Shown here one piece after another: positions 23,322-43,199 of a DNA stretch of 64,000 bases. Position numbers and translations under genes: made by a program. The notes under the pieces are model-generated. The model searched no databases. It saw nothing but the letters and a program-made list of their open reading frames with translations, and had not been told where the DNA came from. Every line of letters starts with the position of its first letter. Position 1 is the stretch's first letter. Location of the stretch: assembly GCF_040499845.1 (NCBI RefSeq), contig NZ_CP159342.1:3100001-3164000 (forward strand), written 5' to 3'. The DNA is from Micromonospora sp. CCTCC AA 2012012. GTDB lineage: Bacteria > Actinomycetota > Actinomycetes > Mycobacteriales > Micromonosporaceae.

Positions 23322-23350
23322 AATGAGGGAGGGATCCACGGCAGTCAACG

Positions 23351-23376
23351 GTTTCGACATTGATCGGCCCGGGTAC
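23351..23376 (+). promoter_or_regulatory. SigB/SigF-type promoter of recQ
   Basis: GGTTT (23350-23354), 16-nt spacer after GTTT, GGGTAC (23371-23376), ATG 12 nt later. This exactly fits the stress-sigma consensus and fixes the recQ start at 23389. Confidence 0.7.
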
Positions 23377-23388
23377 CTCCGGCCCTCG

Positions 23389-25020
23389 ATGAAACTGTCC
23401 ACGCACTCGACGACGTTGCGCCGCGCGGCGCGGAGCCTCTTCGGCTGGACCGCGCTGCGGCCCAACCAACTGGCCGCGATGCGCGCGGTGATGAAGCGCC
23501 GCGACGCCCTGGTGGTCCTGCCCACCGGCGCCGGCAAGTCGGCGATCTATCAGATCCCGGCCAGCCTGATCCCCGGACCGACGGTGGTCATCTCTCCCCT
23601 GCTGGCCCTCCAGCAGGACCAGATCGCGGCGCTCAACGAGCGGCAACGCCCCGAGCTGCGGGCCGTGCGGATCAGCTCCGACGAGAGCGCCGCCCAGCAG
23701 GCGGAGGCGATCGAGGAGATCCGCCAGGGGCGGGCGGAGTTCCTCTTCATCACCCCCGAGGCGCTCAGCAACCCGGACCGGATGGCCGAGGTCAAGTCGC
23801 TGAAGCCGGCCCTGGTCGCGATCGACGAGGCGCACTGCATCTCGGCCTGGGGGCACGACTTCCGCCCGGACTACCTGGCGCTCGGCCACCTCATCGACGG
23901 CATCGGCCGGCCGCCGGTGGTGGCGCTGACGGCCACCGCCTCCCCGCCGGTGCGCGACGACATCGTCGCCCGGCTGCGGCTGCGCGAGCCGGAGATCGTG
24001 GTCTCCGGCCTGGACCGGCCCAACCTCTTCCTCGAGGTGGCGCACTGCCCCACCGAGGACTACCGCTGGCGACGGCTGACCGCGCTGCTGCGCGACGACA
24101 AGCGCCCCGGCATCATCTACGTGCCGACCCGGCGGGCCGCCGAGGAGCTGGCCGCCCGGCTCACCGACGCCGGTTGGCCGACGAAGTTCTATCACGGTGG
24201 GATGCCGACCAACGCCCGCCACGAACTGCACGAGGCCTTCCTCGCCGACCAGGTGCCGATCATGGTGGCGACCTCGGCGTTCGGCATGGGCATCGACAAG
24301 CCCAACATCGCCTGGGTGGTGCACACCGCGCTGCCCGACTCGCCGGACAGCTACTTCCAGGAGATCGGCCGCGCCGGGCGGGACGGGGAACCGGCCCGGG
24401 TGCTGCTGCTCTGGCGCGCCGAGGACGTCGGCCTCCAGCGCTACTTCAGCGGCGGCCTGCCCGACGAGACCGAGCTGCGGGACCTGGCCGCGCTGCTGCG
24501 CAGGCAGGCCCGCACCCGCAAGGAGCTGCGCGAGGTGACCGGCCTCGGCCCGCGCAAGCTCGGCCAGTACCTCTCCCTGCTGGAGCAGGTGGGCGCCGCC
24601 GAGCCCCGGGCCAAGCAGAAGATGGGCGCCCCCCGGTACGCCCCGAAGCCCGCCGAGTCGGGCCGGGCCGCCCTCGCCGAGGCGGAACGCCAGCAGACCG
24701 TCACCCGGTCGCGTACCGACATGATGCGGGCGTTCGCCGAGACCACCGGGTGCCGGGGGCAGGCGCTGCTGGCGTACTTCGGTGAGCAGATGAGCGAGGT
24801 CTGCGGGCACTGCGACAACTGCCACGCGGGCACCAGCGTCGCCGGCGACGGGGCGAGCGGTCCCTTCCCGGTGCACAGCCAGGTCCGGCACCCGGAATGG
24901 GGTCCCGGTCTGGTCCTCAGCTACGAGGAGGACCGGATGACGGTGCTCTTCGACGAGGTGGGGTACAAGACCCTGTCGGTCCGCGTGGTGTCCGAACAGG
25001 GCCTGTTGACGCTGGACTAG
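23389..25020 (+). CDS. recQ: RecQ-family ATP-dependent DNA helicase with C-terminal DUF3553/Tudor-like domain
   Basis: 543-residue 3'-5' helicase. Walker A LPTGAGKS, DEAH box (IDEAHCISAWGHDFRPDY), motif III LTATASPPV, motif VI QEIGRAGRDG, and a RecQ zinc cysteine pair CGHCDNC. Instead of the HRDC domain, the C-terminus (about 500-543) is SQVRHPEWGPGLVLSYEEDRMTVLFDEVGYKTL, resembling the Tudor-like end of PcrA/UvrD helicases (DUF3553). An upstream in-frame ATG at 23323 is rejected because a SigB/F-type promoter lies between it and ATG 23389. Confidence 0.93.
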   Translation: MKLSTHSTTLRRAARSLFGWTALRPNQLAAMRAVMKRRDALVVLPTGAGKSAIYQIPASLIPGPTVVISPLLALQQDQIAALNERQRPELRAVRISSDESAAQQAEAIEEIRQGRAEFLFITPEALSNPDRMAEVKSLKPALVAIDEAHCISAWGHDFRPDYLALGHLIDGIGRPPVVALTATASPPVRDDIVARLRLREPEIVVSGLDRPNLFLEVAHCPTEDYRWRRLTALLRDDKRPGIIYVPTRRAAEELAARLTDAGWPTKFYHGGMPTNARHELHEAFLADQVPIMVATSAFGMGIDKPNIAWVVHTALPDSPDSYFQEIGRAGRDGEPARVLLLWRAEDVGLQRYFSGGLPDETELRDLAALLRRQARTRKELREVTGLGPRKLGQYLSLLEQVGAAEPRAKQKMGAPRYAPKPAESGRAALAEAERQQTVTRSRTDMMRAFAETTGCRGQALLAYFGEQMSEVCGHCDNCHAGTSVAGDGASGPFPVHSQVRHPEWGPGLVLSYEEDRMTVLFDEVGYKTLSVRVVSEQGLLTLD

Positions 25021-25083
25021 CCTGACCCGGGCACCGCACCGGTGCCGGGCGACAACGACGACCAGGGCGAGAGGGGCTTGATC

Positions 25084-25587
25084 GTGATCGAGCAGCCGGC
25101 GTACACCGGGTTCGGTTTCACCGACGAGGAGTGGGGGCTGCTGGTCGGCCTCCCGCAGTCGGTGCTGACCGCGGCGAGCGCGGCGGAGTCCGACGGCACC
25201 AGGCGGACCATGGCCGAGAACGCCGCCGGGCTGGAGACGATCGGCGCCGGCCGCCAGTCGGCCAGCCCGCTGGTGGCCGCGGTCGCCGGGGAGATCGTCT
25301 CCCGGGTGGGCGACCCGGAGGCCGGCGAGGAGCTGCCGGTGATCGCGCCGGCCGACCCGCAGGCGATGATCGACGACGTGCTGGTCCGGGCCGGCCAGGC
25401 CGCGGCCCTGCTCGCCGCGAAGGTCGACGAGGGCGAGTCGGGGGCCTACCGGCACTGGCTGGTGGAGATCGCCGAGCAGGTGGTCACCGCCGCGTCCAGC
25501 GGTGGGATCCTCGGCCTCGGCGGCGACGTGGTCAGCGACTCGGAGCGCCGCTTCCGGGACCGGCTCTCCCACGTGCTCAACGACTGA
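25084..25587 (+). CDS. Conserved hypothetical protein, unknown function
   Basis: 167 residues, acidic and helix-rich, with no signal peptide or membrane helix. It begins VIEQPAYTGFGFTDEEWGLLVGLPQSVLTAASAAESDG and ends in a Gly-rich loop (SSGGILGLGGDVVSDSERRF). GTG 25084 is chosen for a GAGAGGGG about 7 nt upstream; GTG 25042 is the alternative. It follows recQ by about 60 bp and may share its transcript. No family recognised. Confidence 0.75.
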   Translation: MIEQPAYTGFGFTDEEWGLLVGLPQSVLTAASAAESDGTRRTMAENAAGLETIGAGRQSASPLVAAVAGEIVSRVGDPEAGEELPVIAPADPQAMIDDVLVRAGQAAALLAAKVDEGESGAYRHWLVEIAEQVVTAASSGGILGLGGDVVSDSERRFRDRLSHVLND

Positions 25588-25636
25588 CGCCGCCCGGCCA
25601 CAGCCGGCGGGGCCGGCACCGGCATGACGGATACTC

Positions 25637-25676
25637 GACGCCCCACGGATGTCGCCCGACGACACCGTGGGGCGTC
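25637..25676 (+). terminator. Terminator after the recQ-associated gene
   Basis: Perfect 12-bp stem GACGCCCCACGG / CCGTGGGGCGTC with a 16-nt loop, 50 bp after the stop. Confidence 0.7.
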
Positions 25677-25712
25677 CTCGATTCCGGAGGGCGACGGACA
25701 AGGGGGTCGCTG

Positions 25713-26756
25713 ATGGACGGCACACTGCACCGGCAGGTCCTCGACACCGGGCTGGTCCCGCCGAAGGACCGGTTCGGCATGTGGCTGGACATGATCGCCG
25801 ACTCGCCGGCGCCGCTGCGGATCCGCAGCGACCACGCGGACGACTTCGTCGCCCGGGCCGAGTTCATCGACCTCGGCCCGATCCGCCTGATCAACTACCG
25901 GTACCCGTCGCTGGAGTGCGTCCGCACCCGCAAGCTGGTGCAGCGCTCCGACCCGGACTACTACCTGCTCGCCCTGACCACCTCCGGCCGGGGGCTGACC
26001 GCGCAGGACGGGCAGCGCAGCGCGCTGGGCGCGCACGAGTTCACCTTCTACGACTGCTCCCGGCCGCACGAGGTGAACCACTACGGCGACGACCACGGCC
26101 GGGAGGCGGCCAGCTCCGTCGTCGCCTTCATCCCGTACGACGCGCTGCCGTTGCCACCGGGGCGGCTCGCCCCGCTCTTCGCCGGCCGGATGTCCGGCAC
26201 CGAGGGGATCGGCGCGCTGGCGGCGCAGTACCTGCTGCAGATCACCGCCCGACCCGAGCAGTACCACGCGGCGGACGCCGGTCGGCTGGCCGGCGTCGGG
26301 CTCGACCTGATCTCCACGATGCTCGGGCGGCACCTGGTCTCCGAGGAGACCGTGCCCACCGAGGTACGGCGTCGCGCCCTGCTCACCCAGGTCCGCTCCT
26401 ACATCCACCAGCACCTGGGCGAGACGACGCTGACCCCGCGGCAGGTCGCCGACGCGCACCACGTCTCGGTCCGGTCACTGCACCGGCTCTTCGAGGCGGA
26501 GGAGACGACCGTCGCCGCGTACATCCGGGACCAACGGCTGGAACGGTGCCGGCGCGACCTCGCCGACCCGGCCCTGCGGGACCGGCCGGTCCAGCTGATC
26601 GCCGCCCGCTGGGGGTTCCGGGACAAGGCGCACTTCAGCCGGGCGTTCCGCGCGGCGCACGAGCTGACCCCGCAGGCGTACCGGGTGCGGGAGCGGGAAC
26701 AGGCACGGATCGTCAACACCGCGGCATCCCTGGTCAACTCCGAGCCGACATACTGA
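25713..26756 (+). CDS. AraC-family transcriptional regulator
   Basis: 347 residues. N-terminal AraC_binding_2-like sensing domain (about 1-215) and C-terminal double helix-turn-helix (about 235-335), with TPRQVADAHHVSVRSLHRLFEAEETT as the first HTH and AARWGFRDKAHFSRAFRAAHELTPQAYR as the second. The terminator at 25637-25676 separates it from the upstream gene, so it is transcribed on its own. No obvious target is adjacent. Confidence 0.92.
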   Translation: MDGTLHRQVLDTGLVPPKDRFGMWLDMIADSPAPLRIRSDHADDFVARAEFIDLGPIRLINYRYPSLECVRTRKLVQRSDPDYYLLALTTSGRGLTAQDGQRSALGAHEFTFYDCSRPHEVNHYGDDHGREAASSVVAFIPYDALPLPPGRLAPLFAGRMSGTEGIGALAAQYLLQITARPEQYHAADAGRLAGVGLDLISTMLGRHLVSEETVPTEVRRRALLTQVRSYIHQHLGETTLTPRQVADAHHVSVRSLHRLFEAEETTVAAYIRDQRLERCRRDLADPALRDRPVQLIAARWGFRDKAHFSRAFRAAHELTPQAYRVREREQARIVNTAASLVNSEPTY

Positions 26757-26816
26757 TTGCGGGCCGGTCGCCGGGACACCGGGTCGGCCCACTGGTAACG
26801 GGGGGCCGTGGCGAGG

Positions 26817-26842
26817 CGCCCGCGACAGTCCCGTCGCGGGCG
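26817..26842. terminator. Hairpin between convergent araC-type and topoisomerase genes
   Basis: 10-bp stem CGCCCGCGAC / GTCGCGGGCG with a 6-nt AGTCCC loop. Confidence 0.65.
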
Positions 26843-26854
26843 GCCGCCCGGTTG

Positions 26855-27838
26855 TCAGGCCTCCTCGAGCAGCGTCAGGACCGCCTTCTCCACGGCCTCC
26901 CGGGGCATCTGCGGCTCCACCGGCGCCAGCGACCCGTCGTGATAGAGATCCACCACGCGGGGATCCACATACGACGTACGGGCCACCGTCGGGGTGTTCC
27001 CGAGCAGCTCGGAGACACTGCGCATCACCGCGGCGACCGCCCGTTTGCGGGCCGTCGCCGACCGCTGCGGGCCGAGCGTGGCCAGTTCGGTCGCCGCCAG
27101 CACCGTCGCGTGCCAGGTACGGAAGTCCTTGGCCGTCATCTCCCCGCCACTGGCGTCGCGCAGGTAGTCGTTGACCTCGTCGCTGCGTACGTCCCGCCAG
27201 CTCCGGCCGTCCCAGTAGCCGAAGAGCCGCTCGGCGGCGCGCCGACGGCGGCGCAGGTTCGTCAGCACCTGGCACAGCTCCCGGTCCTCGATCCGGCGGA
27301 CCTGGTCGATGCCGCCCTTGGCCGGGAACTCGAAGACCACGCAGCCGCCGCGGGAGCGCGCGTGCTCGGGACGGAGCGTGGCGACGCCGAAGGTGGGATC
27401 CTCCCCCACGGCGTACTGGTCGCTGCCGACCCGGAACATGCCCATGTCGAGCAGCCGGGTCACCGTCGCCAGCACCCGGTCGCGGTTGAGCCCCCGACCG
27501 GTCAGGTCGTGGTCCACCCGCTCGCGCAGCGACGGCAGGCGGCGGGCCACCTCCAGGACGTGGTCGAACTTCGCCTCGTCCCGCTTCTCGCGCCACGTCG
27601 GGTGGTAGAGGTACTGCTTGCGGCCGGCCGCGTCGACGCCGGTGGCCTGGATGTGCCCGTTCGGGTACGGCGAGATCCAGACGTCCTGCCAGGCCGGTGG
27701 GATGACCAGGTCCCGCAACCGCGCCAGCACCTCCGGGTCGCGGACCGGCTCGCCGGCCGGATCCAGGAAGAGCCACCCCTTGCCGCGCCGGCGCCGGCCG
27801 TATCCCGGCCGACCCGGATCACTACGCCGTAACCGCAT
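26855..27838 (-). CDS. DNA topoisomerase IB (poxvirus-like)
   Basis: 327-residue type IB topoisomerase that relaxes supercoils through a 3'-phosphotyrosyl intermediate. Visible features: N-terminal DNA-clamp (VIPPAWQDVWISPYPNGHIQATG, HPTWREKRDEAKFDH), catalytic-domain segments FEFPAKGG, EMTAKDFRTWHATV, and the active Tyr (about 290) in TSYVDPRVVDLYHDG. The start overlaps the stop of the upstream GT9 gene by 17 bp, so it is read from the heptose operon. Such enzymes are common in actinobacteria but not essential. Confidence 0.93.
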   Translation of the reverse strand: MRLRRSDPGRPGYGRRRRGKGWLFLDPAGEPVRDPEVLARLRDLVIPPAWQDVWISPYPNGHIQATGVDAAGRKQYLYHPTWREKRDEAKFDHVLEVARRLPSLRERVDHDLTGRGLNRDRVLATVTRLLDMGMFRVGSDQYAVGEDPTFGVATLRPEHARSRGGCVVFEFPAKGGIDQVRRIEDRELCQVLTNLRRRRRAAERLFGYWDGRSWRDVRSDEVNDYLRDASGGEMTAKDFRTWHATVLAATELATLGPQRSATARKRAVAAVMRSVSELLGNTPTVARTSYVDPRVVDLYHDGSLAPVEPQMPREAVEKAVLTLLEEA

Positions 27839-28790
27839 CGGAACCCCGCCCCGATCGCTCGACCTCGCCCACGGCGGCCAGCACCTCGTCCACCGGGACG
27901 GCCACCACCGTCGGACGATCTCCTACCCCGCCGTCGCCGGCCCAACCGTCGACTTCGGACCGACCGGACGCGTCCAGCACCCGGTGCCACGGCCGGTCCG
28001 GGGGCGGCCCCCAGCGGGCCGGGGAGACCGGACCGAAGAGCACCACCGAGGCGGTGCCGTACCCGGTGGCCAGGTGGGCCACGCCGGTGTCGCCGCTGAC
28101 CACCACCCGGGCGTCGGCGACCAGCGCGGCCAGCTCCACCAGGTCGGTGCGGCCGGCGCGGACCGACTCCGGCGGCAGTCCGGCCGCGCGGGCGATCCCG
28201 GCGGCCAGCCCGCGTTCGTCCGCCGAGCCGGTCAGCACCACCCGGTGACCCCGGTCGGTGAGCGCGCGGGCGAGCGCGGCGAAACGCTCCGCCGGCCAGC
28301 GCTTGGCGGGCACCTTGCTGCCGGGATGCAGGACGGTGGCGCCGGCCGGCACCCCGGCCCGGGGCGGACGCCGCAGCGCCAGGTCGGTCGGGTCGGCGGG
28401 CAGGCCGTACCAGTGCAGCAGCCGGCACCAGCGACGGACCTCGTGCTCGTCGTCGTCCCAGCGTGGCCCGTCGGTCCAGCCGGCGGCCGGGTTCGCGAAG
28501 GCCAGCAGGCGACCGGGGCGGGCCGCGGCGAGCATCCGGTGCGACTGCGGCCCCTGCCCGTGCAGGTTCACCGCCACCTCGGGCGGCGGGCCGGGCCAGG
28601 CCGGGCGGTCGGCCAACCCGGCGGTGGGCAGCACCCGGTCGATCCCGCCGACCAGCGCGGCCAGCGGCGCCAGCCACTGCGGTGCGGCCAGCACCAGCTC
28701 CCGGCCGGGGAGACCGGCCCGCAGCCCGCGCAGCGCGGGGACGGCCACCGCGAGGTCGCCGACCCCGAGCGCGCGCAGGGCCAGGATCAC
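27822..28790 (-). CDS. Glycosyltransferase family 9 (heptosyltransferase-like)
   Basis: 322-residue GT-B enzyme. The opening VILALRALGVGDLAVAVPALRGL and C-terminal LHPGSKVPAKRWPAERFAALA and SGDTGVAHLATGYGTASVVLFGPVSPARWGPP are GT9 signatures; GT9 contains the Gram-negative heptosyltransferases WaaC/WaaF. It lies in an operon with ADP-heptose biosynthesis genes, so it probably transfers heptose to a cell-surface acceptor. GTG 28790 overlaps the SDR stop (GTGA), and its 3' end overlaps the topoisomerase gene. Confidence 0.88.
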   Translation of the reverse strand: MILALRALGVGDLAVAVPALRGLRAGLPGRELVLAAPQWLAPLAALVGGIDRVLPTAGLADRPAWPGPPPEVAVNLHGQGPQSHRMLAAARPGRLLAFANPAAGWTDGPRWDDDEHEVRRWCRLLHWYGLPADPTDLALRRPPRAGVPAGATVLHPGSKVPAKRWPAERFAALARALTDRGHRVVLTGSADERGLAAGIARAAGLPPESVRAGRTDLVELAALVADARVVVSGDTGVAHLATGYGTASVVLFGPVSPARWGPPPDRPWHRVLDASGRSEVDGWAGDGGVGDRPTVVAVPVDEVLAAVGEVERSGRGSDAVTA

Positions 28791-29497
28791 GGGTACGACG
28801 ACTCCCGCTCGGCGCAGACGACGAGTTCCCGTACCGCGCACCCGGGCGGCTGGGAGAGGGCGAACATGACCGCGGCGGCGGTGTCGGCGGGCTCGTTGAG
28901 CGCGGCGTCCGGTCCCGGCCGGTACTGCGCGTCCCGCTCGTCGAAGAACGCCGTGCGCATGCCGCCCGGGACGAGCAGGGTGACCCCGACCGCGCCGGCC
29001 AGCTCGGCGGCCAGCGCCCGGGTGAAGCCGACCACCCCGAACTTGGCCGCGCAGTAGGCGGTGGCGTCGCTGACCGCCTTCACCCCGAGCGTGGAGGCGA
29101 CGGTGACGATGCTCCCCCGGGACGCCTCCAGGTAGGGCAGCGCCGCGCGGATCACCGCCGCGGTGGCGAGCAGGTCCACCGCGACGATCCGTTCCCAGGT
29201 CTCCCCCGGCACGTCGGCGAGCTTGCCGGGCACGTCCATGCCGGCGGCGGTCACCACCGCGTCGAGGCCACCGGAGCGCTCGGCCAGCTCCCGGGTGGCC
29301 GACTCGGCGGCCCGGGTGTCGGCCAGGTCGCACTCGACCCACGGCACCCCGTCGGCGGGGCGCTGCCGGTCGAGCACCAGCGGCCGGCCGCCGGCCCGGG
29401 CCACCGCGGTGACCACGGCCGCGCCGAGCCCGCTCGACCCACCGGTGACCAGGACGGTCGGCCCGCCCCCCGGTGGTGGTCCGGTGCGTTCGCTCAT
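28787..29497 (-). CDS. Short-chain dehydrogenase/reductase in the heptose operon
   Basis: 236-residue classical SDR: cofactor loop VTGGSSGLGAAV, AAGMD (replacing NNAG), and the catalytic Ser-Tyr-Lys set around VTVASTLGVK and ATAYCAAKFG. The ATG at 29497 overlaps the upstream kinase/adenylyltransferase stop (ATGA). It is too short to be an HldD-type extended epimerase; it may oxidise, reduce or epimerise the heptose or another sugar in the same pathway, which is inference from position. Confidence 0.85.
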   Translation of the reverse strand: MSERTGPPPGGGPTVLVTGGSSGLGAAVVTAVARAGGRPLVLDRQRPADGVPWVECDLADTRAAESATRELAERSGGLDAVVTAAGMDVPGKLADVPGETWERIVAVDLLATAAVIRAALPYLEASRGSIVTVASTLGVKAVSDATAYCAAKFGVVGFTRALAAELAGAVGVTLLVPGGMRTAFFDERDAQYRPGPDAALNEPADTAAAVMFALSQPPGCAVRELVVCAERESSYP

Positions 29498-33870: not shown

Positions 33871-35618
33871 CGTGGGCTCCGGCCGGTGACCGGCAGCGGC
33901 GGGCCCGCCGACCGGGCGGCGACCACCGCCTCCGGGCGCGGCGACGCGTCGGGGGGCACGCCGAGCAGGCGCAGCGCCTCCAGGACGCGTCCGGGTTCGA
34001 CGGCGGAGAGGCAGGGGTGCCCGGGCACCGGGCAGCGGGTGGCGCGGGTGTCCCGGCAGGGGGCCGCGGCGTCGCCGAGGCGGACCGCGGGGACCCGGTA
34101 AGGGCCCCACTGTCCGTACGGGACGGTCGGGGCGAAGAGGCTGACCACGGGCACCCCGAGCGCGGCGGCCAGGTGTGCCGGCCCGGTGTTCCCCACCACC
34201 AGCGCGCCGGCCCCGGCGATCACGGTGGCCAGCTCGGCGAGCCCGGTACGCCCACCCAGGTCGACCCCGCCGGCCGCGGCCACCCGGGCGGTCAGGTCCC
34301 GCTCACCGTCGCCGCCGGTGACCAGCACCCGGTAGCCGGCGGCACTGAGCACCCGGACGATCCGGGTGGCCAGCTCGGGCGGGCAGGCCCGGGTAGACAC
34401 CGACGAGCCGGGGTGCAGCACGACGTAGCCGGGCTCGACCGGGGCCGGCGGCAGCGCGTCGACGCGCAGCCGGAGTCCCGGTTCGTCCCCGGCGGGCAGC
34501 GTGAACCCGGCGGCGGCGGCCAGCGACAGCGCCCGTTCGGGTTCGGGTACGCCGACGGGGACGCGGTGGCGGACGTCGAGGAGGCTGCCGGGGTAGTCGT
34601 CGCTGATGGCGCTGATCCGGGGCACTCCGGCCAGGCGCAGGAGCAGGGCCAGGGGTAGTGGGGACTGGTGGTAGCTGGTGAAGACGACGGCTTCGTCGGC
34701 GGCGATCTCGGCGAGCCGGTCGGTGAGGTGGCGGATGTCGGTCGGGTCGACGGGTGCGGGGTCGCCGTCGATCCAGGGCAGCGGCCATTCGATGATCTGG
34801 TCGATGCCGGGGAGGAGTTCGGCGGCGGCGCGTCCGCGGGGGCCGCAGAGCAGCACGACGCGGTCGGCTCCGGCGGCGACGGCGCGGATGCCGGGGCCGG
34901 TGACCAGCACATCCCCGGCCGCGTCGCTGCGGACCACCAGCACCCGGCCCCGCCGACGGGTCGGTGCGGGGCCGGCGACCAGTGCCATCCGGTCGAGGAT
35001 CTCGGTGACCGCGGCGGGCAGGTCGGCCACCACCCGGGGCGCGGCGGCCACCTCGGCCGGGCGGGTTGCCGGGGTGGGCACCATGACGGCGGCGGCGCCC
35101 GCCGCGCCGGCAGCGATCATGTCGGCGCCGATGTCGCCGACCAGCACGCAGCGCCGGGGCGTGGTGCCGAGCGCTGCGGCGGCGGCGTGCACCAGGCCGG
35201 GTGCCGGCTTGCGGCAGGCACAGCCGTCCGGCTCGCCGTGCGGGCAGATCTGCCAGCTGTCGAACGGACCGAGCAGCTCCTCCACCCGGGCGTTGACCCG
35301 GCGCAGCTGGTCGGCGGTGAAGAAGCCCCGGGCCAGTCCGGACTGGTTGGTCACCACGGCCAGCCGCAGCCCCGCCGCCCGCAACCGGTCCAGGGCCTCC
35401 CGGGCGCCGGGCAGCGGGCGGACCTTCTCCGGGTCACCGTTGTAGGGCACGTCCTCGACCAGCGTGCCGTCCCGGTCGAGCAGCACCGCGTCGAAGAGAC
35501 GGGGACCGGGCGGGAACCGGTCAGCACCCGGGTCAACCCGGGCTGACCTGCACTGATCCCGCTCGTGGTCCCGTCGCACGGCGGGCGGGTTCCCGACGCC
35601 CCGAGGAGTAAACATCAT
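33867..35618 (-). CDS. Fusion: heptose bisphosphate phosphatase (GmhB-like HAD-IIIA) + GT9 glycosyltransferase
   Basis: 583 residues, first gene of the operon. Residues about 40-205 are a GmhB-type HAD-IIIA phosphatase: VLLDRDGTLVEDVPYNGDP, VTNQSGLARG, a zinc loop ICPHGEPDGCACRKP and VGDIGADMIAAGAAG. Residues about 225-555 are GT9: VVRSDAAGDVLVTGPGIRAV, VVLHPGSSVSTRACPPELA, GNTGPAHLAAALGVPVVSLFAP. Separate proteins in Gram-negatives, so this couples bisphosphate removal with heptosyl transfer. Codons at about 34530-34915 are unusually C-ending. Start is ATG 35618 or 35615; no strong ribosome site. Confidence 0.85.
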   Translation of the reverse strand: MMFTPRGVGNPPAVRRDHERDQCRSARVDPGADRFPPGPRLFDAVLLDRDGTLVEDVPYNGDPEKVRPLPGAREALDRLRAAGLRLAVVTNQSGLARGFFTADQLRRVNARVEELLGPFDSWQICPHGEPDGCACRKPAPGLVHAAAAALGTTPRRCVLVGDIGADMIAAGAAGAAAVMVPTPATRPAEVAAAPRVVADLPAAVTEILDRMALVAGPAPTRRRGRVLVVRSDAAGDVLVTGPGIRAVAAGADRVVLLCGPRGRAAAELLPGIDQIIEWPLPWIDGDPAPVDPTDIRHLTDRLAEIAADEAVVFTSYHQSPLPLALLLRLAGVPRISAISDDYPGSLLDVRHRVPVGVPEPERALSLAAAAGFTLPAGDEPGLRLRVDALPPAPVEPGYVVLHPGSSVSTRACPPELATRIVRVLSAAGYRVLVTGGDGERDLTARVAAAGGVDLGGRTGLAELATVIAGAGALVVGNTGPAHLAAALGVPVVSLFAPTVPYGQWGPYRVPAVRLGDAAAPCRDTRATRCPVPGHPCLSAVEPGRVLEALRLLGVPPDASPRPEAVVAARSAGPPLPVTGRSPR

Positions 35619-35746
35619 CTTCGGCGGCCCGGTCGGTGCCGTCCCCGCCCGGCCGGTGCTGCCGCCGGCCCGGTCCGGCGTTACCCGCCGCCCCGGAGAA
35701 GCTAACCCGGCGGGCCCGTTACGGGCCGACCGGGCGAGGGTATGGG

Positions 35747-36199: not shown

Positions 36200-36265
36200 C
36201 CCTCGGGCGCGGGGGCACTCGTTACCCTCTTCGTGAACCCTGTCGGCAAACCGAGGATGTCCGTG

Positions 36266-37033
36266 ATGATCGAACCCGTTCAGTTGCCCTCTCCCTGGCG
36301 GGACGCGCGCCTGACCGTCGTCGTTCCCACCTACAACGAGGCGGGCAACCTCCCGGTGCTGGTCGAGCGGCTCCTCGCGCTCCCGCTGCCGGGGCTCAAG
36401 GTGCTCGTCGCGGACGACAACTCCCCCGACGGCACCGGCGAGGTCGCCGACAAGCTGGCCATCGAGCACCCTGAGCGGATCCAGGTGGTGCACCGGGCCG
36501 GCAAGGAGGGCCTCGGGCGGGCGTACGTGGACGGCATCAGCCGGGCGCTCGACGGCGGCGCGGACTACGTGGCCCAGATGGACGCGGACCTGTCGCACCC
36601 GCCGGAGGCCCTGCCCGGCATGCTCGGCGCGCTCCTGTCGACGCAGGCCGGCGTGGTGATCGGTTCCCGCTACGTGCCGGGTGGACAGCTCGACGAGAAC
36701 TGGCCGCTCTACCGGCGCGCGCTCAGCGGCTGGGCCAACCTCTACGTGCACACCCTGCTGCGGGTGCGGATCCGCGACCTCACCGCGGGCTTCAAGATCT
36801 GGCGGGCCGACGCGCTGCGCGACATCGGGCTGGAGCGGGTGCAGTCCAACGGCTACAGCTTCCAGGTGGAGATGCACTACCTCGCCACGAAGCTCGGGCA
36901 CACCATCCTGGAGGTGCCGATCCGCTTCGAGGAGCGCCGCGAGGGGGCCTCGAAGATGACCACCGCCACCAAGGTCGAGAGCGCGCTGATGCCGTTCAAG
37001 CTCCGCTCCCGGCACCGCAACATCGAGGGCTGA
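36266..37033 (+). CDS. Polyprenol monophosphomannose synthase-type glycosyltransferase (GT2)
   Basis: 255-residue cytoplasmic GT-A enzyme. Motifs: TVVVPTYNEAGNLPVLVERL, VLVADDNSPDGTGEVAD (nucleotide Asp), the metal-binding DADLSHPPE and IGSRYVPGG. This is the DPM1/Ppm1 synthase domain transferring mannose from GDP-mannose to polyprenyl phosphate for glycolipid or glycoprotein mannosylation; the membrane acyltransferase domain fused in some mycobacteria is absent. Start at ATG 36266 with GAGG 9 nt upstream; GTG 36233 and ATG 36257 are alternatives. Confidence 0.92.
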   Translation: MIEPVQLPSPWRDARLTVVVPTYNEAGNLPVLVERLLALPLPGLKVLVADDNSPDGTGEVADKLAIEHPERIQVVHRAGKEGLGRAYVDGISRALDGGADYVAQMDADLSHPPEALPGMLGALLSTQAGVVIGSRYVPGGQLDENWPLYRRALSGWANLYVHTLLRVRIRDLTAGFKIWRADALRDIGLERVQSNGYSFQVEMHYLATKLGHTILEVPIRFEERREGASKMTTATKVESALMPFKLRSRHRNIEG

Positions 37034-37410
37034 CCGGGGCACTGCACCCTCACCCGGCCCGCAGCGCGTCGCCGGAGCCGTACACCGCGAGCCAGCCGGT
37101 GACGGTCGGCAACCAGCACGCTCCGTGATGCCGGCCGTTCCATCAGCCCGCCCTCGCGGGCCCCTTTGCTCTGCAGCCATCAACGCAACACCACCCTGAC
37201 CTGCGGTAGAGCGCCACGCTTCGGTGTGTCGCTGCCCTCGCTTGGTGACGCAGGGTGGCTGCTGCCTGGGTGGCTGCAGAGCAAAGGCGGCAAACCCCGG
37301 CCGTCGCACCACCGGAGCCACCACAGCGCGTCACCGACGCAACAGCGCTCAGCGCACGCGCGCCACCGCGCCACGCGGGCCGCAGCGCGGCGCTTCGGAG
37401 CCGCGCGCGG
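37034..37410. other. Intergenic region of 377 bp containing an inverted-repeat element
   Basis: No credible gene in either strand: the overlapping ORFs have no family resemblance and atypical composition. The left half holds the inverted-repeat element at 37163-37287; the right half is GC-rich, with a CGCGCG-type sequence, and is otherwise featureless. Confidence 0.6.
37163..37287. repeat. 125-bp element with 17-bp perfect terminal inverted repeats
   Basis: CCTTTGCTCTGCAGCCA (37163-37179) and TGGCTGCAGAGCAAAGG (37271-37287) are exact inverses. A second pairing, CCACCCTG (37191-37198) with CAGGGTGG (37251-37258), lies inside, so the whole can fold into a long stem. No target-site duplication seen. 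Either a MITE-like insertion or a structured terminator; origin unresolved. Confidence 0.55.
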
Positions 37411-39027
37411 TCAGCGGTAGATCGCGCGGTGGGCGGCGCCGATCGCCCCGGCGTACAGGCCGCCGGTGAGCGCGCGGTCGCGGGCCAGGGCCGCCCGGGC
37501 GGCGTTCGCCCCCGGCGCGCCGTGCACCCCACCGCCGGGATGCGCCGACGAACTGGCCAGGAAGAGCCGGTCCACCGGGGTGTCCGCGCGGCCCAGGCCG
37601 GGAATCGGCCGCAGGAAGAGCTGCTGGTACGCCGCGGCGGTGCCGCCGCCGAGCGCCCCGCCGACCAGGCTCGGGTCGCCCTTCTCCAGGTCGGCCGGAC
37701 CGGCCACGTGCCGGCCCACGATCAGCGACCGGAACCCGGGTGCGGCCTCCTCCAGCACCTCCTCCATGCGCGTCACGTGCTCCGCGATCTGCTCGGCCCG
37801 CCACTCCCGCCGGAACGGCAGGTGGGTGTACGACCAGAGCGACTCCGTGCCGGGCGGCGAGTGGCTCGGGTCCGCCACCGACATCTGTCCGACCAGCAGG
37901 AACGGGTCCCGCGGCACCTCGCCCCGGGCCAGCTCGGCGGAGTAGGTGGTCAGCCCGTCGAGGTCCGCGCCGAGGTGCACCGTGCCGGCGGTGGCCAGCG
38001 ACCGGTTCTTCCACGGCACCGGCGCGGAGAGCGCCCAGTCGACCTTGAGGGTGGAGCCGTCCCACTTGAAGTGGGCCAGGTCCTCCACCATCCGGGGCGG
38101 CAGCGCCGCGGCGCCGACGAGATCCAGGAAGAGCGCCGGCGCGGGCACGTCGGCGAGCACCGCCCGGCGGGCCCGCCAGGTCGCCCCACCGACCGTCCGT
38201 ACGCCCATCGCGCGCCCCCGGGCGGTGAGCACCCGGTCGACGTGCGCGCCGTAGCTGATCCGGCCGCCCCGCTCGGTCAGCCGGGACACCAGCGCGTCGG
38301 TGATCTTCTGGGCCCCGCCGACGGGCACCGGCCAGCCGACCTGCTGGCCGAGCATGGCGAGCAGCCAGCCGTACACCCCGGAGCCGGCCTCCTCGGGGGA
38401 CAGGTCGGTGTGCAGGGCGCAGCCGGCCAGCAGCGCCGGCCCGCCGGCCCCCTGGAAGAGCTCGTCGCCGAGCTTGCGGACCGGCACGACGAGGCGGCGG
38501 GCCAGGCGCAGTGACCCGGAGACGCGCAGCCGGCGCAGCAGGCCCAGCCCGCCGCGGACCGGCGGGAAGGGCGTGGTGATGGTGTCGAGCATCGGCCCGG
38601 CCACCTCCAGCCAGTCCGTGTACGCGTTGAGCCAGCGGTCCCCGTCGCCGGGCGCGAACGCCTCCAGCGACGTGGCGGTGACGTCGGGGTCCCGGTTGAC
38701 CACCGCGGCCCGCCCGTCGGGCAGCAGGTGTGCCAGCACGTCGGGGGCGTGCGTCCAGGTCAGTCCGTGCCGGTCCAGGTCGAGGCCGCGCAGCACGGGC
38801 GAGGCGTACCCGAGGGGGTAGAAGGAGCTGTAGAGATCGCTGAGGTAGCCGGGGGCGGTGACCTCGGCGGAGCGGACCGCGCCGCCGGGGGCCTGGGTCG
38901 CCTCCAGCACGAGGACGTCCCAGCCCGCGTCGGCCAGCAGGTTGGCGGCGACCAGTCCGTTGTGCCCGGCGCCGATGACGACGGCGTCCGCGGTCTCCGG
39001 GCCGGTCGACATGCCGTTCGACATCAT
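37411..39027 (-). CDS. NAD(P)/FAD-dependent oxidoreductase, phytoene desaturase-like
   Basis: 538 residues. N-terminal Rossmann dinucleotide site VVIGAGHNGLVAANLLADAG and VLEATQAPGGAVRS place it in the CrtI/phytoene-dehydrogenase-like COG1233 group; the C-terminus keeps FLASSSAHPGGGVHGAPGANAARAAL, the FAD-binding end motif. No other carotenoid gene is nearby, so the substrate is unknown. ATG 39027 lies 9 nt after a GTTT-N16-GGGTAG promoter on the minus strand, implying a stress-induced leaderless message divergent from the aldehyde dehydrogenase gene. Confidence 0.88.
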   Translation of the reverse strand: MMSNGMSTGPETADAVVIGAGHNGLVAANLLADAGWDVLVLEATQAPGGAVRSAEVTAPGYLSDLYSSFYPLGYASPVLRGLDLDRHGLTWTHAPDVLAHLLPDGRAAVVNRDPDVTATSLEAFAPGDGDRWLNAYTDWLEVAGPMLDTITTPFPPVRGGLGLLRRLRVSGSLRLARRLVVPVRKLGDELFQGAGGPALLAGCALHTDLSPEEAGSGVYGWLLAMLGQQVGWPVPVGGAQKITDALVSRLTERGGRISYGAHVDRVLTARGRAMGVRTVGGATWRARRAVLADVPAPALFLDLVGAAALPPRMVEDLAHFKWDGSTLKVDWALSAPVPWKNRSLATAGTVHLGADLDGLTTYSAELARGEVPRDPFLLVGQMSVADPSHSPPGTESLWSYTHLPFRREWRAEQIAEHVTRMEEVLEEAAPGFRSLIVGRHVAGPADLEKGDPSLVGGALGGGTAAAYQQLFLRPIPGLGRADTPVDRLFLASSSAHPGGGVHGAPGANAARAALARDRALTGGLYAGAIGAAHRAIYR

Positions 39028-39036
39028 CCGATCCGC

Positions 39037-39062
39037 CTACCCGGCCGGTTACCGGGCGAAAC
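39037..39062 (-). promoter_or_regulatory. SigB/SigF-type promoter of the FAD oxidoreductase gene
   Basis: Minus strand: GTTT (39062-39059), 16-nt spacer, GGGTAG (39042-39037), ATG 9 nt later. The -35 abuts the -35 of the divergent promoter as AAACGCGTTT. Confidence 0.65.
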
Positions 39063-39064
39063 GC

Positions 39065-39089
39065 GTTTGCCTCGACGGGACCGGGGCAT
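39065..39089 (+). promoter_or_regulatory. SigB/SigF-type promoter of the aldehyde dehydrogenase gene
   Basis: GTTT (39065-39068), 15-nt spacer, GGGCAT (39084-39089), ATG 10 nt later. Confidence 0.6.
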
Positions 39090-39099
39090 CCACTGCCGC

Positions 39100-40533
39100 A
39101 TGTACACGGTTGCGCAGCTCATAGGTGGAGTGTGGGGCGCGGGTGGCGCGGGAGGGGAGCTGGTCGTACACGATCCGGCGGACGGCTCCCCGGTGACCAC
39201 CGTGCCGGTGGCGACGGCGGACGAGGTGGCCAAGGCCGTCGAGGCCGCGCGCGGCGCGGCGGCGGAGTGGGCGGCGACCGCCCCGGCGGAGCGGGCCGCG
39301 GCGCTGCACCGCGCCGCGGACGCGGTGGAGGCCGCCGCCGAGGACCTGGCGCGGGCCACCACGGCGGAGATGGGCAAGCCGCTGGACGACGCCCGCGGCG
39401 GTGTCGCGGCCGGCGTCGGCACCCTGCGGCAGTACGCGGAGCTGGGTCCCGTCCGCGGCGGCCGGACGCTGCACGGCGGCACTGACGCCATCGACTTCAT
39501 GGCCCCCGGACCGCGGGGCGTGGTCGCCGCGATCACCCCCTGGAACGACCCGGTGGCGGTCTCCTGCGGGCTGCTCGGCGCCGCGCTGGTCACCGGCAAC
39601 GTGGTGCTGTACAAGCCGAGCGAGCGGACCCCCGGGACCGGCTGGCTGCTGGCGAAGGCCCTCGACTCGGCGCTGCCGGCCGGGGTGCTCTCGCTGCTCA
39701 CCGGCGGCCCCGAGGTGGGCGCGGCACTGGCCGGCCAGGAGGTCGACGTGGTGGCCCACGTCGGCTCCACCGCCACCGGCCGCGCCATCGCCGCCGCCGG
39801 GGCGCGCACCGGCGCGAAGGTGCTGCTGGAGAACGGCGGCAGCGACCCGCTGGTGGTGGACGCCGACGTCGACCCGGTCTGGGCGGCCGAGCAGGCGGCG
39901 CTGGGGTGCTTCGCCAACGCCGGGCAGATCTGCGTGGCGGTGGAACGGATCTATGTGCACCGGGACGTCGCGGAGGACTTCGTGGCCGCGCTGGTGCAGC
40001 GGGCCGAGGCGCTCACCCTGGGCGCCGGCCGGGACCCGGAGACGCAGCTCGGGCCGCTGGTGGACCGGCGGCACCGGGACCACGTGCACGGTCAGGTCAC
40101 CGCCGCGGTGGCCGAGGGGGCGCGGGTGCGGACCGGCGGGACGGTGCCGGACGGCCCCGGGGCCTTCTATCCGGCCACCGTGGTGACCGACTGCCGGCAC
40201 GAGATGACGCTGGTCCGCGAGGAGACGTTCGGGCCGGTCGCCCCGGTGATCGTGGTCGACTCGTTCAGCGAGGGGCTGCGCTGCGCCGCCGACTCGCCGT
40301 ACGGGCTGGCGGCCACGGTGCTCACCGGGTCGATGAGTCACGCCCAGCGGGCCTGGCGGGAACTGCCGGTCGGCACCGTCAAGATCAACGCGGTCTTCGG
40401 CGGCGCGCCGGGCGGTGCCGCGCAGCCGCGCCAGGGCAGCGGCCAGGGCTTCGGGTACGGCCCCGAGCTGCTGGACGAGTTCAGCACGGTCAAGGCGGTG
40501 CACATCGAGGCGCCCGGGGGCGGCCACTGGTGA
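39100..40533 (+). CDS. Aldehyde dehydrogenase family protein
   Basis: 477-residue NAD(P)+-dependent dehydrogenase. Catalytic Cys278 (NAGQICVA), general base Glu244 (LLENGGSDP, where most relatives read ELGG), TPWND, YKPSE and ETFGPVAPV are visible. The C-terminus is ordinary for the family. The promoter is SigB-like with only 10 nt between -10 and ATG, suggesting induction by stress, perhaps to remove reactive aldehydes. Followed by a strong terminator before the convergent ChaB gene. Confidence 0.92.
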   Translation: MYTVAQLIGGVWGAGGAGGELVVHDPADGSPVTTVPVATADEVAKAVEAARGAAAEWAATAPAERAAALHRAADAVEAAAEDLARATTAEMGKPLDDARGGVAAGVGTLRQYAELGPVRGGRTLHGGTDAIDFMAPGPRGVVAAITPWNDPVAVSCGLLGAALVTGNVVLYKPSERTPGTGWLLAKALDSALPAGVLSLLTGGPEVGAALAGQEVDVVAHVGSTATGRAIAAAGARTGAKVLLENGGSDPLVVDADVDPVWAAEQAALGCFANAGQICVAVERIYVHRDVAEDFVAALVQRAEALTLGAGRDPETQLGPLVDRRHRDHVHGQVTAAVAEGARVRTGGTVPDGPGAFYPATVVTDCRHEMTLVREETFGPVAPVIVVDSFSEGLRCAADSPYGLAATVLTGSMSHAQRAWRELPVGTVKINAVFGGAPGGAAQPRQGSGQGFGYGPELLDEFSTVKAVHIEAPGGGHW

Positions 40534-40548
40534 CCCGTCGACCGACGA

Positions 40549-40582
40549 CGGGAGCCCGGGACCGGCTGGTCCCGGGCTCCCG
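40549..40582. terminator. Bidirectional terminator, 15-bp perfect stem
   Basis: CGGGAGCCCGGGACC / GGTCCCGGGCTCCCG with a GGCT loop, between convergent genes. Confidence 0.85.
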
Positions 40583-40593
40583 TGTGTCGTACG

Positions 40594-40998
40594 TCAGCGG
40601 CCGCCGCGCGCCTTGCGGGTCGCGTTGGTGTTGGCCTTCTCGATGGCCTTGACCAGTTCCGGCTTGGTCATCCGGGACCGGCCCGGCACGTCCAGCTTCT
40701 TCGCCACCTCCATCAGGTGGTCCTTGGTGGCGTTGGCGTCCACGCCGCCGGCGGTGGGTGCCCGCCGGGCCGGTCCGCCGCCCTCGGCCTGCCGGTCGCT
40801 CGGGCCCTTGCGGCCCTTCGGCTCCCAGTGGTCGCCGACCTTCTCGAACTCGTGCTTCACGGCGGCGAACGCGGTGCGGTGGGCCCGCTCTCCCTCGCCG
40901 TACGTCTCCACCGCCGAGTCGTGCGTCTTCTCCCATGTGCGCTGGGCCTTCTCCGGGGAGCGCCGCAGCGTGCTGGGCAGTACCTCGCGCCCGGGCAT
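40594..40998 (-). CDS. ChaB-domain protein with C-terminal Rho-N/SAP-like domain
   Basis: 134 residues: N-terminal ChaB domain (about 1-60; LPSTLRRSPEKAQRTWEKTHDSAVETYGEGERAHRTAFAAVK), a basic Pro/Gly linker, and a C-terminal Rho-N-like helix-extended domain (NATKDHLMEVAKKLDVPGRSRMTKPELVKAIEKAN) of the kind that binds nucleic acid. Common stress-associated architecture in actinobacteria. Two good purine-rich ribosome sites upstream (GGAGGAGGA and AGGAGGTGA). Promoter is SigB-like (GTTT-N15-GGGAAC) and divergent from that of yihY. Confidence 0.88.
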   Translation of the reverse strand: MPGREVLPSTLRRSPEKAQRTWEKTHDSAVETYGEGERAHRTAFAAVKHEFEKVGDHWEPKGRKGPSDRQAEGGGPARRAPTAGGVDANATKDHLMEVAKKLDVPGRSRMTKPELVKAIEKANTNATRKARGGR

Positions 40999-41034
40999 CT
41001 CGTCCTCCTCCGCGTCAACGGGTCACCTCCTGAG

Positions 41035-41059
41035 GTTCCCGCCCGGGACCGGGACAAAC
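41035..41059 (-). promoter_or_regulatory. SigB/SigF-type promoter of the ChaB/Rho-N gene
   Basis: Minus strand GGTTT (41060-41056), 15-nt spacer, GGGAAC (41040-41035); one mismatch in the -10. Confidence 0.5.
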
Positions 41060-41068
41060 CGGCACCCC

Positions 41069-41094
41069 GTTTGTCGATTTTTCGCCCGGGGTAC
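41069..41094 (+). promoter_or_regulatory. SigB/SigF-type promoter of the YihY gene
   Basis: GTTT (41069-41072), 16-nt spacer, GGGTAC (41089-41094), 53 nt upstream of ATG 41148, so a normal leader follows. Confidence 0.65.
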
Positions 41095-41147
41095 CGGCTC
41101 TGGCACGCGGCGGGGGTGCGCCCGGGCGCGGGACACAGGGAGCGGTC

Positions 41148-42125
41148 ATGGCAGCGACGAGTCAGCCGGTGGTCACCGACCGGCAGCAGGCCCGGATCCC
41201 CCGCCGGATGCGCCAGCTGAGCTGGGCGACCTGGCGCGGGGTGCTGGTCCGCAGCGGGCGGAACTTCGTCAAGGACAACTGCGCGGACTGGGCCGCCGCG
41301 CTCACCTACTACGGGGTGCTGGCGCTCTTCCCCTCCACCATCGTGGTGGTCGCGCTGGTCGGTCTCGTCTCCGACGGGGAACGGACCGTGGACACCCTGA
41401 TCGGGCTGGCCCGGGACGTGGGCGCCGGCTCGGTGGTCGGCAACGAGGGCTTCGTCGACGTGATCCGCGGCGTGGTCGACCAGCAGAGCTCGGCGCGGGT
41501 GCTGCTGAGTTTCGGTCTGCTCGGCGCCCTGTGGTCGGCGTCCGGCTTCATCGGGGCGTTCACCCGCGCCTCCAACGCCATCTACGGCGTCGAGGAGGGG
41601 CGGCCCTTCTACCGGCTGCGGCCGTTGCAGATCGGGCTGGCCGGGTTGTCGCTGCTGCTGCTGGCGGTGGTGGCCGTCGCGCTGATCGTCAGTGGTCCGG
41701 TGACCGACGCGGTCGGCGACCTGGTGCACGCCGGCGGGTTGGCCCGTACGGTGTGGAGCGTGGCGAAGTGGCCGGTGCTCGCCCTGCTGATGATGACCCT
41801 GCTGTCGCTGCTGTTCTGGATCGCCCCGAACGTGCGGCAGCCCCGGTTCCGCTGGCTCACCCCGGGTGGCGGCCTCGCCCTGCTCGCCTGGGTGCTCGCC
41901 TCCTTCGGCTTCGGCCTCTACGTGTCGAACTTCGCCTCGTACGACGTGACCTACGGCAGCCTGGGCGCGGTCATCGCCTTCCTGGTCTGGCTCTATCTGT
42001 CGAACTGCGCGTTGATGCTCGGTGTCCAGGTCAACGCCGAGCTGCAGCGCGGCCGGGTGCTCCAGTCCGGCGCCGGTGACCCGGGCGAGCCGGTGCTGCC
42101 GCCCAAGGCCCCGGCCGATTCGTGA
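41148..42125 (+). CDS. YihY/BrkB-family inner-membrane protein
   Basis: 325 residues with six membrane helices. YihY signatures: DNCADWAAALTYYGVLALFP near residue 44, WSASGFIGAFTRASNAIYGVEEGRP, and GAVIAFLVWLYLSNCALMLGVQVNAEL at the C-terminal side. Family members are sometimes mislabelled ribonuclease BN; transport function is unproven. Long basic N-terminus. Stress-sigma promoter upstream; GGG...GGAGC purine stretch near ATG 41148. Confidence 0.9.
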   Translation: MAATSQPVVTDRQQARIPRRMRQLSWATWRGVLVRSGRNFVKDNCADWAAALTYYGVLALFPSTIVVVALVGLVSDGERTVDTLIGLARDVGAGSVVGNEGFVDVIRGVVDQQSSARVLLSFGLLGALWSASGFIGAFTRASNAIYGVEEGRPFYRLRPLQIGLAGLSLLLLAVVAVALIVSGPVTDAVGDLVHAGGLARTVWSVAKWPVLALLMMTLLSLLFWIAPNVRQPRFRWLTPGGGLALLAWVLASFGFGLYVSNFASYDVTYGSLGAVIAFLVWLYLSNCALMLGVQVNAELQRGRVLQSGAGDPGEPVLPPKAPADS

Positions 42126-42155
42126 CCGGATGACCGGCTTCACGGTCCGGCCCCG

Positions 42156-42180
42156 GTTTACCGGCCGCCCGCTCGGGCAT
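42156..42180 (+). promoter_or_regulatory. SigB/SigF-type promoter of the DUF2795 gene
   Basis: GGTTT (42155-42159), 15-nt spacer after GTTT, GGGCAT (42175-42180), ATG 10 nt later. Confidence 0.6.
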
Positions 42181-42190
42181 CCCAGACGGC

Positions 42191-42607
42191 ATGGAACGTG
42201 GCAGCAGCAAGCACTCACCCAGGGTCGACGAGCAGATGAGCCAGGAGGTCGCCGGGCTCGTCCAGGGTCCGGGGACCGGCGGCTCCCGGGTGGACGAGTT
42301 CCGTCAGCCGGAGCCGGCGGGCGAGGACCAGCCGGAGGCGACCACCGCCCCGGCCGGCGAGCTGCGCACCGGTGCCCCGCAGGGGATGAGCTCGCAGGAC
42401 GTGGAGGCGCGCAGCCGCCTCGGCCGGTTCATCACCATGACCGCCCTGCCCGGTGACCGGGAGGCGCTGGTCGCCAACGCCCGCGAGAACGAGGCCCCGG
42501 CCGACATCGTCGCGGCGTTGGAGCGACTGCCGGAGGGCACCCGTTACCAGACGATTTCCGAGGTGTGGGCCGCCCTCGGGCACAAGAACGAGACGACGCG
42601 CTGGTGA
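42191..42607 (+). CDS. DUF2795 protein
   Basis: 138 residues. Disordered N-terminal half rich in Gln/Glu/Pro, then the DUF2795 domain (about 75-135; RLGRFITMTALPGDREALVANARENEAPADIVAALERLPEGTRYQTISEVWAAL), a small helical repeat found in stress loci. ATG 42191 lies 10 nt after a SigB-like -10, fitting a leaderless start; ATG 42236 is the alternative. The SRPBCC gene 52 bp downstream is likely co-transcribed. Confidence 0.85.
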   Translation: MERGSSKHSPRVDEQMSQEVAGLVQGPGTGGSRVDEFRQPEPAGEDQPEATTAPAGELRTGAPQGMSSQDVEARSRLGRFITMTALPGDREALVANARENEAPADIVAALERLPEGTRYQTISEVWAALGHKNETTRW

Positions 42608-42659
42608 CCGGATCGGCCCACGATCCGGAGCGTCACCGGCGGCAGAGGAGGAAATCCTG

Positions 42660-43121
42660 ATGAGCGGCGTAATGGAGCACGTGGACGTCTCCGTCCCGAT
42701 CCGGACCGCGTACGACCAGTGGACCCAGTTCGAGGAGTTCCCCCACTTCATGGAGGGGGTCCAGGAGGTCCGGCAGCTCTCCGACACGATGACCCACTGG
42801 ACGGTGGAGATCGCCGGGGTCAAGCGCGAGTTCGACGCCGAGATCACCGAGCAGCTGCCCGACGAGCGGGTCGCCTGGAAGTCCACGGGCGGCACCCAGC
42901 ACGCCGGTGTGGTGACCTTCCACCGGTTGGACGAGAACGACACCCGGGTCACCCTCCAGCTGGAGTTCGAGCCGCACGGTGTGGTCGAGAAGGCGGGCGA
43001 CAAGCTGGGCGTCGTCGACCGCCGGGCCAAGGGCGACCTGGAGCGGTTCAAGCAGTTCATCGAGCGGCGCGGCCAGGAGACCGGTGCCTGGCGCGGCTCG
43101 GTGGACCGACCCACCCCGTGA
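42660..43121 (+). CDS. SRPBCC-family (cyclase/dehydrase-like) protein
   Basis: 153 residues: SGVMEHVDVSVPIRTAYDQWTQFEEFPHFMEGVQEVRQLSDTMTHW is a very typical cyclase/dehydrase opening, with a C-terminal helix DRRAKGDLERFKQFIERRGQETGAWRG. Helix-grip fold for a small lipid-like ligand; enzymatic activity not implied. Strong AGGAGG 6 nt upstream of ATG 42660. Likely in the SigB-type operon with DUF2795. Confidence 0.9.
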   Translation: MSGVMEHVDVSVPIRTAYDQWTQFEEFPHFMEGVQEVRQLSDTMTHWTVEIAGVKREFDAEITEQLPDERVAWKSTGGTQHAGVVTFHRLDENDTRVTLQLEFEPHGVVEKAGDKLGVVDRRAKGDLERFKQFIERRGQETGAWRGSVDRPTP

Positions 43122-43174
43122 TCTGCTGATCCCCCGCACACGACACGTCCGACGGCGGTGGCCCCCCGGCGGCC

Positions 43175-43199
43175 GTTTGCGATCACCGGCCCCGGGTAC
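43175..43199 (+). promoter_or_regulatory. SigB/SigF-type promoter of a small acidic gene
   Basis: GTTT (43175-43178), 15-nt spacer, GGGTAC (43194-43199), ATG 9 nt later. Confidence 0.65.

Follow-up and report, generated by a model that had tools for sequence, protein, structure and literature searches.

The DNA considered here (the window) is a stretch of 64,000 nucleotides (nt) from the 6.73-Mb single-contig genome of Micromonospora sp. CCTCC AA 2012012 (G000:C1:3100001-3164000), in which seven gene starts are preceded by an element of the form GTTT-N15/16-GGG, resembling the promoters of stress-type sigma factors of the SigB/SigF family. One element stands before the gene of a RecQ-family DNA helicase, a protein that scores above the cut-off for the RecQ subfamily and below the NCBIfam equivalog cut-off for recQ. 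The other six lie in an islet of genes for a flavin adenine dinucleotide (FAD)-dependent oxidoreductase, an aldehyde dehydrogenase (ALDH), a ChaB/Rho_N protein, a YihY/BrkB membrane protein, DUF2795 and SRPBCC proteins, and a small acidic protein (Table 1; feature coordinates are those of the window unless marked genome). A sequence-only reading had listed these seven elements, and all seven were found exactly where it had placed them (spacers, in order, of 16, 16, 15, 15, 16, 15 and 15), as were five start codons lying 9-12 nt past the -10 box; chaB and yihY have longer leaders than these five genes. The list was genuine yet incomplete, as an eighth element on the minus strand obeys the same pattern and had been left out. 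Weaker candidates occur, also on the minus strand, at 14593-14569 (GGGGAC) and 59514-59491 (N14, GGGTAA).

Table 1. Promoter elements, the genes behind them and the candidate sigma factor gene in the window.
Feature	Position	Strand	Details
recQ promoter	23351..23376	+	GTTT-N16-GGGTAC, ATG 23389 12 nt downstream; 55/55 genus orthologues
RecQ-family helicase, 543 aa	23389..25020	+	DEAD, Helicase_C, RecQ_Zn_bind, DUF3553
Eighth candidate element	35589..35613	-	GTTT-N15-GGGAAC, in-frame GTG 9 nt downstream
FAD-dependent oxidoreductase	37411..39027	-	Amino_oxidase; top NCBIfam match CrtO, far under its cut-off
Oxidoreductase promoter	39037..39062	-	GTTT-N16-GGGTAG, 9 nt to ATG; 19/19 genus loci
ALDH promoter	39065..39089	+	GTTT-N15-GGGCAT, 10 nt to ATG; 19/19 genus loci
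Aldehyde dehydrogenase (ALDH)	39100..40533	+	Aldedh
ChaB + Rho_N protein (chaB)	40594..40998	-	Pfam domains
chaB promoter	41035..41059	-	GTTT-N15-GGGAAC; 29/30 genus loci
yihY promoter	41069..41094	+	GTTT-N16-GGGTAC; back to back with chaB promoter; 30/30 genus loci
YihY/BrkB membrane protein	41148..42125	+	Family matches
DUF2795 gene promoter	42156..42180	+	GTTT-N15-GGGCAT, 10 nt to ATG, SRPBCC gene next; 30/30 genus loci
DUF2795 protein	42191..42607	+	Family match
SRPBCC (Polyketide_cyc) protein	42660..43121	+	Family match
Small acidic protein promoter	43175..43199	+	GTTT-N15-GGGTAC, 9 nt to ATG; 30/30 genus loci
Small acidic protein, 87 aa	43209..43472	+	Without Pfam or NCBIfam match
SigB/SigF/SigG-family sigma factor, 274 aa	62092..62916	+	Candidate reader; orthologue in 59/61 genus genomes

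The elements are far in excess of what base composition or a control pattern yields. The window holds eight matches to GTTT-N15/16-GGG[TCA]A[CTG], where 60 Markov simulations of order 1 averaged 0.33 (maximum 2) and 60 of order 3 averaged 0.08 (maximum 1), and a scan of spacers from 5 to 30 gave matches at 15 (five), 16 (three) and 23 (one) only. Across the whole genome, the strict form GTTT-N15/16-GGGYAY has 48 occurrences and its reversed-pattern control 6, and the relaxed GGGNA form 119 and its control 24; in each of 61 genomes of the genus the strict form outnumbers its control, with averages of 37.7 and 5.5, respectively. When 103 of the 119 relaxed sites were examined with a simple codon-score gene finder, about 16 fell in predicted coding sequence, although such sequence makes up approximately 89% of the 164 kb over which it was measured, a point in favour of promoters. 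Four of the 48 strict matches, also included in the 103, are a single identical 26-mer (L001 949-974 and genome 1541596, 2922357 and 5479604), one copy of which lies inside a 16S rRNA gene (Rfam) and whose other three, judging by their identity, should do likewise; this is a chance match to be masked in such scans. A second dense cluster, of about 19 GTTT-N15/16-GGGNA sites in 84 kb, surrounds a sigma-SsdA-like gene elsewhere in the genome (C1:1293259-1377009, L151-L155), near genes for haem-oxygenase-like, CDGSH, Pyr_redox_2, AI-2E transporter, DUF2231 and DUF4383 proteins.

Within the genus, the elements are conserved in their spacers and in their distances to the start codon. Among the best 30 YihY loci of the genus (some YihY match being present in 59 of the 61 genomes), the yihY, DUF2795 and acidic-protein promoters are each kept without exception and the chaB promoter at all loci but one. 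The oxidoreductase/ALDH region was taken from 20 genomes, one of them cut by a contig end and left out, and the remaining 19 all carry both elements, with the starts of the two -35 boxes always offset by 3 nt (the ALDH -10 of L343 reads GGGGAT). At L380, L381 and L382 (genomes G013, G015 and G043), no yihY lies between chaB and the DUF2795 gene, both of which remain with their promoters. Just past the islet, at 43543-43687, a GC-rich unit of 18 bp is repeated in tandem (8.1 copies, 99% matches).

Two pairs of these promoters stand back to back. Only 2 bp separate the -35 boxes of the oxidoreductase and ALDH promoters (39062/39065), whose start codons (39027 and 39100) are 72 bp apart, an interval that is nearly all promoter, while 9 bp lie between those of chaB and yihY (41059/41069); a third such pair is found at genome 35764/35774. 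Random placement of 103 sites would give some 0.004 pairs within 10 bp, a rough estimate that takes no account of the clustering of sites between genes. Across a gap of 2 bp, one polymerase would be expected to keep out the other.

The recQ promoter was followed through the genus and the family. An orthologue of the helicase with 86-100% identity is present in 55 of the 61 genus genomes, and all 55 have GTTT-N16-GGGNA followed after 12 nt by the ATG (in L079 with a shifted anchor, also at 12 nt); of the remaining six, three have only a RecQ relative of 67-69% identity and three have neither. No such element was found at seven loci of this 67-69% relative or before the two other recQ paralogues of the genome itself, although three of these nine are weak negatives, as L144 begins inside the gene and the alignments of the two paralogues start only at residues 14 and 21. 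In the family at large, 71 of 80 named recQ loci carry the element, namely all 54 of L198-L251 and 17 of the 26 in L252-L277, with minor variants (a spacer of 15 in L242, 11 nt to the start in L251) and one locus, L202, that was missed in one of two scans and found in the other, its match beginning at residue 3. Over the 54 Micromonospora-type rows, information reaches 1.5-2.0 bits at -38 to -33 and at -18 to -12 and stays at or below 0.6 bits at -60 to -41; the stretch between the -10 and the ATG is also conserved in parts. A further family-wide draw gave the same picture (L192, L196 and L197 without the element, L188 and L195 with a -10 only and a poor -35). Within the family, recQ at L266, L268, L271, L277 and other Actinoplanes-type loci lacks a stress-type element, and L271 has in its place a TAGCCT-like hexamer near the start, seen by eye, that may reflect a change of promoter. 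In the window itself, the segment between the recQ promoter and the divergent gene (23290-23325) contains inverted GAAC/GTTC-type repeats that, by eye, look like a repressor site.

Traces of the element extend beyond the family. A matrix built from 66 sites of the genome, recQ excluded, with its -35 part hand-set rather than learned so as to allow GNNT-like boxes, was scored over 160 upstream positions at the loci of the nearest RecQ relatives (about 45-52% identity) in other families of a class-wide draw; 27 such loci were available, and 25 were scored after L314 and L303 had been excluded for too near a contig end. Fifteen are significant (p < 0.05) when compared with windows of their own locus, the expected number being 1.25, and these are spread over families f2, f9, f11, f14, f17, f23, f29 and f36, within each of which the loci are not independent of one another. 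The -35 box is frequently altered there (GGTT, GCGT, GACT, GATT), two of the fifteen (L301, L302) lack GGG in the -10, and the other ten of the 25 show nothing significant upstream. An in-frame start follows the -10 at 8-11 nt in L300, L302, L304, L306, L309, L322 and L323, and starts placed 8-12 nt past the element suggest that in these families, too, the mRNA may be leaderless.

The short distance to the start codon is a property of many sites in the genome. An ATG lies 8-12 nt past the -10 in 22 of the 103 sites, compared with 5.4 predicted from offsets 13-37, and at 9 or 10 nt in 19, compared with 2.2. Many transcripts, that of recQ among them, are probably leaderless or nearly so, with leaders of perhaps a few nt. 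We do not claim a special enrichment of leaderless genes in the regulon, since 22 of 103, though five of seven in the window, is close to the proportion of about a quarter reported for Mycobacterium tuberculosis (PMC3898074).

The families of the proteins predicted downstream agree with a general stress regulon. Of 62 such proteins, 20 were compared with Pfam, and 19 of these have a match at E <= 0.001, one of them (DUF5699) below Pfam's own cut-off: PRC, Hva1_TUDOR, transaldolase, FMN reductase, PEBP, mechanosensitive channel helix, Pyr_redox_2, AI-2E transporter, DUF2231, CsbD, beta-helix, hemerythrin, thioredoxin, ZIP, ATP-dependent DNA ligase, MFS, VTT, DUF6158 and DUF5699. Many of these families, CsbD for example, are typical of general stress regulons, while MFS, beta-helix and AI-2E are unspecific.

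Promoters of this type are well documented in actinomycetes, and the elements in Micromonospora share their -35 (GTTT or GNNT), their -10 (GGGNA), a spacer of about 14-17, and placement upstream of genes, conserved among relatives; their assignment to the SigB/SigF type in the earlier reading thus holds. In Streptomyces coelicolor, the GGG and A of the -10 are nearly invariant in promoters of SigB homologues and the -35 is GTTT or GNNT, with GTTT more conserved in SigF, SigH and SigN promoters and wide cross-recognition between the factors, but that organism has nine SigB homologues where three were found here, and recQ does not figure in the main text of the report (PMC8346170). Sigma-H(As) of Actinoplanes sp. 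SE50/110, with a motif derived from mapped 5' ends and complemented by electrophoretic mobility shift assays, has -35 GTTT and -10 GGGTA at an average distance of 14.6 nt, although the main text mentions neither recQ nor a helicase (PMC11205660). A precedent that includes recQ is the SigF regulon of Mycobacterium smegmatis, with consensus GTTT-N14-19-GGGTA, where an array of the sigF mutant, with SigF consensus listed, showed MSMEG_5399, annotated 'ATP-dependent DNA helicase RecQ', at -3.01/-3.11 log2 (about 8-fold down) and ChaB MSMEG_1802 at -4.71/-4.70 log2 (PMC4694148). There, however, recQ is grouped with its neighbours as MSMEG_5402-5399, with the consensus placed at MSMEG_5402 (PMC4694148), and transcription probably reaches it from an upstream gene, whereas in Micromonospora the gene is preceded by a promoter of its own, 12 nt before the ATG; MSMEG_5399 is a candidate orthologue only, and the recQ neighbours at L323 (family f2), judged from their sequence, look unlike that run. 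A RecQ helicase as stress-sigma target, which the sequence-only reading had deemed notable, is therefore not new in itself; the conservation described here goes further.

Three SigB/F-type sigma genes are present in the genome and could read these promoters: that of the window (genome 3162092), a paralogue of 78% identity at 1925817, and a third of 48% identity at 1339775, all with the region-4 segment SQMHVSRLL. The third encodes a sigma factor with a C-terminal STAS domain and is separated by one gene of 666 codons, a candidate ctaD, from a gene for a STAS + HATPase (RsbW-like) protein, an arrangement recalling the ssdA-ctaD-sipA order reported for Micromonospora (PMC10733313). Beside the second sigma gene (L278, genome 1919000-1933000) lies a gene for a 1500-aa protein with seven HAMP stretches and GAF, histidine kinase and response-regulator domains.

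We consider, with a probability of roughly 0.9, that these are promoters of the SigB/SigF type which belong to a general stress (or stationary/spore-stage) regulon of Micromonospora and are read by one or more of these three factors. Some findings pull the other way: nine of the 80 named family recQ loci are without the element, mainly in Actinoplanes relatives (L273 is the 68% relative, and the remaining eight carry Actinoplanes or Paractinoplanes-like genus names in their titles); a SIGffRid analysis places a recQ homologue of S. coelicolor, in what the available text reports, under a different, DNA-damage-type motif (PMC2375139); and the gene finder behind the coding counts is crude, having been trained on seven window genes and having called the strand opposite ALDH, which, with the four 16S copies among the 103 sites, leaves the counts on those sites approximate. 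Some matches in the genome, the 16S copies and the 16 in predicted coding sequence, are clearly not promoters, as would be expected if all were chance products of GC-rich sequence, but such an origin, which we find scarcely credible, is contradicted for the seven sites by their conservation in the genus, where spacer and start distance are kept while the flanks vary. The proposed stress-sigma regulon accordingly stands as to motif type, conserved sites and stress-type families downstream, and falters as to its regulator. The sequence-only reading had implied that the sigma factor encoded at 62092 drives the regulon; it belongs to the SigB/F/G family, its orthologue lies near recQ and yihY where contigs allow (e.g. 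in G050), and the two genomes without it (G015 and G043) also lack the recQ orthologue and yihY. Yet this joint loss could reflect shared synteny, and G013 lacks recQ and yihY despite a 62092-type sigma (86%). Above all, G015 and G043, which lack its 78% paralogue as well, keep the ALDH, chaB, DUF2795, SRPBCC and acidic-protein genes, retain GTTT-N15/16-GGGNA upstream of four of them (ALDH, chaB, DUF2795 and acidic), with no match on the oxidoreductase side, and still show the overall motif excess (29 vs 11 and 28 vs 8). As these genomes keep the promoters without it, the 62092 sigma is not the only reader across the genus; its sole control, unlikely on balance, was not accepted.

What G015 and G043 do possess is a single SigB/F-type copy of 49-50% identity that is SsdA-like, which would suit the sigma-SsdA homologue (genome 1339760-1340896), controlled by its partner SipA, as main reader. 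Actinoplanes missouriensis is of the same bacterial family as Micromonospora, the motif of its sigma-SsdA, GnTT-n14-CGGGTA, proved by in vitro transcription, matches the elements, and sigma + STAS and STAS + RsbW-like proteins with one gene between them, as published for Micromonospora, occur here too (PMC10733313); the 84-kb cluster of relaxed sites also surrounds this gene. On the other hand, recQ is absent from the six of the seventeen probable sigma-SsdA targets that have named functions, the other 11 being hypothetical in the account available (PMC10733313), and the identical region-4 segment in the other two factors gives it no exclusive claim. We hold this arrangement doubtful, if slightly less so than control by the 62092 sigma. 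The likeliest situation is that the sigma factors overlap, in the way that S. coelicolor shows with its nine SigB homologues (PMC8346170).

Under the stress-regulon interpretation, one or more of the three sigma factors would direct RNA polymerase to GTTT-N15/16-GGGNA, presumably upon stress, and transcription would start so near the start codon that many mRNAs, recQ included, would be leaderless or nearly so. More tentatively, and with odds somewhat against it, a short RecQ may have long been under stress-sigma control in Actinomycetes, from a promoter near enough to the start to give a leaderless mRNA, and this trait may be widely kept; and the oxidoreductase/ALDH pair may act as a mutually exclusive two-way switch. 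The type of promoter was already known; what is new is the range of the stress-type promoter before recQ, at 71 of 80 named family loci, with a significant upstream match in 15 of 25 relatives of other families. The promoter pair with a 2-bp gap provides a simple natural system in which to ask whether two holoenzymes exclude each other. For Micromonospora, these results outline a conserved, probable stress regulon, and they extend a single mycobacterial array result towards an apparently old link of the general stress response with a RecQ helicase, a link suggestive of DNA repair during stationary phase or dormancy.

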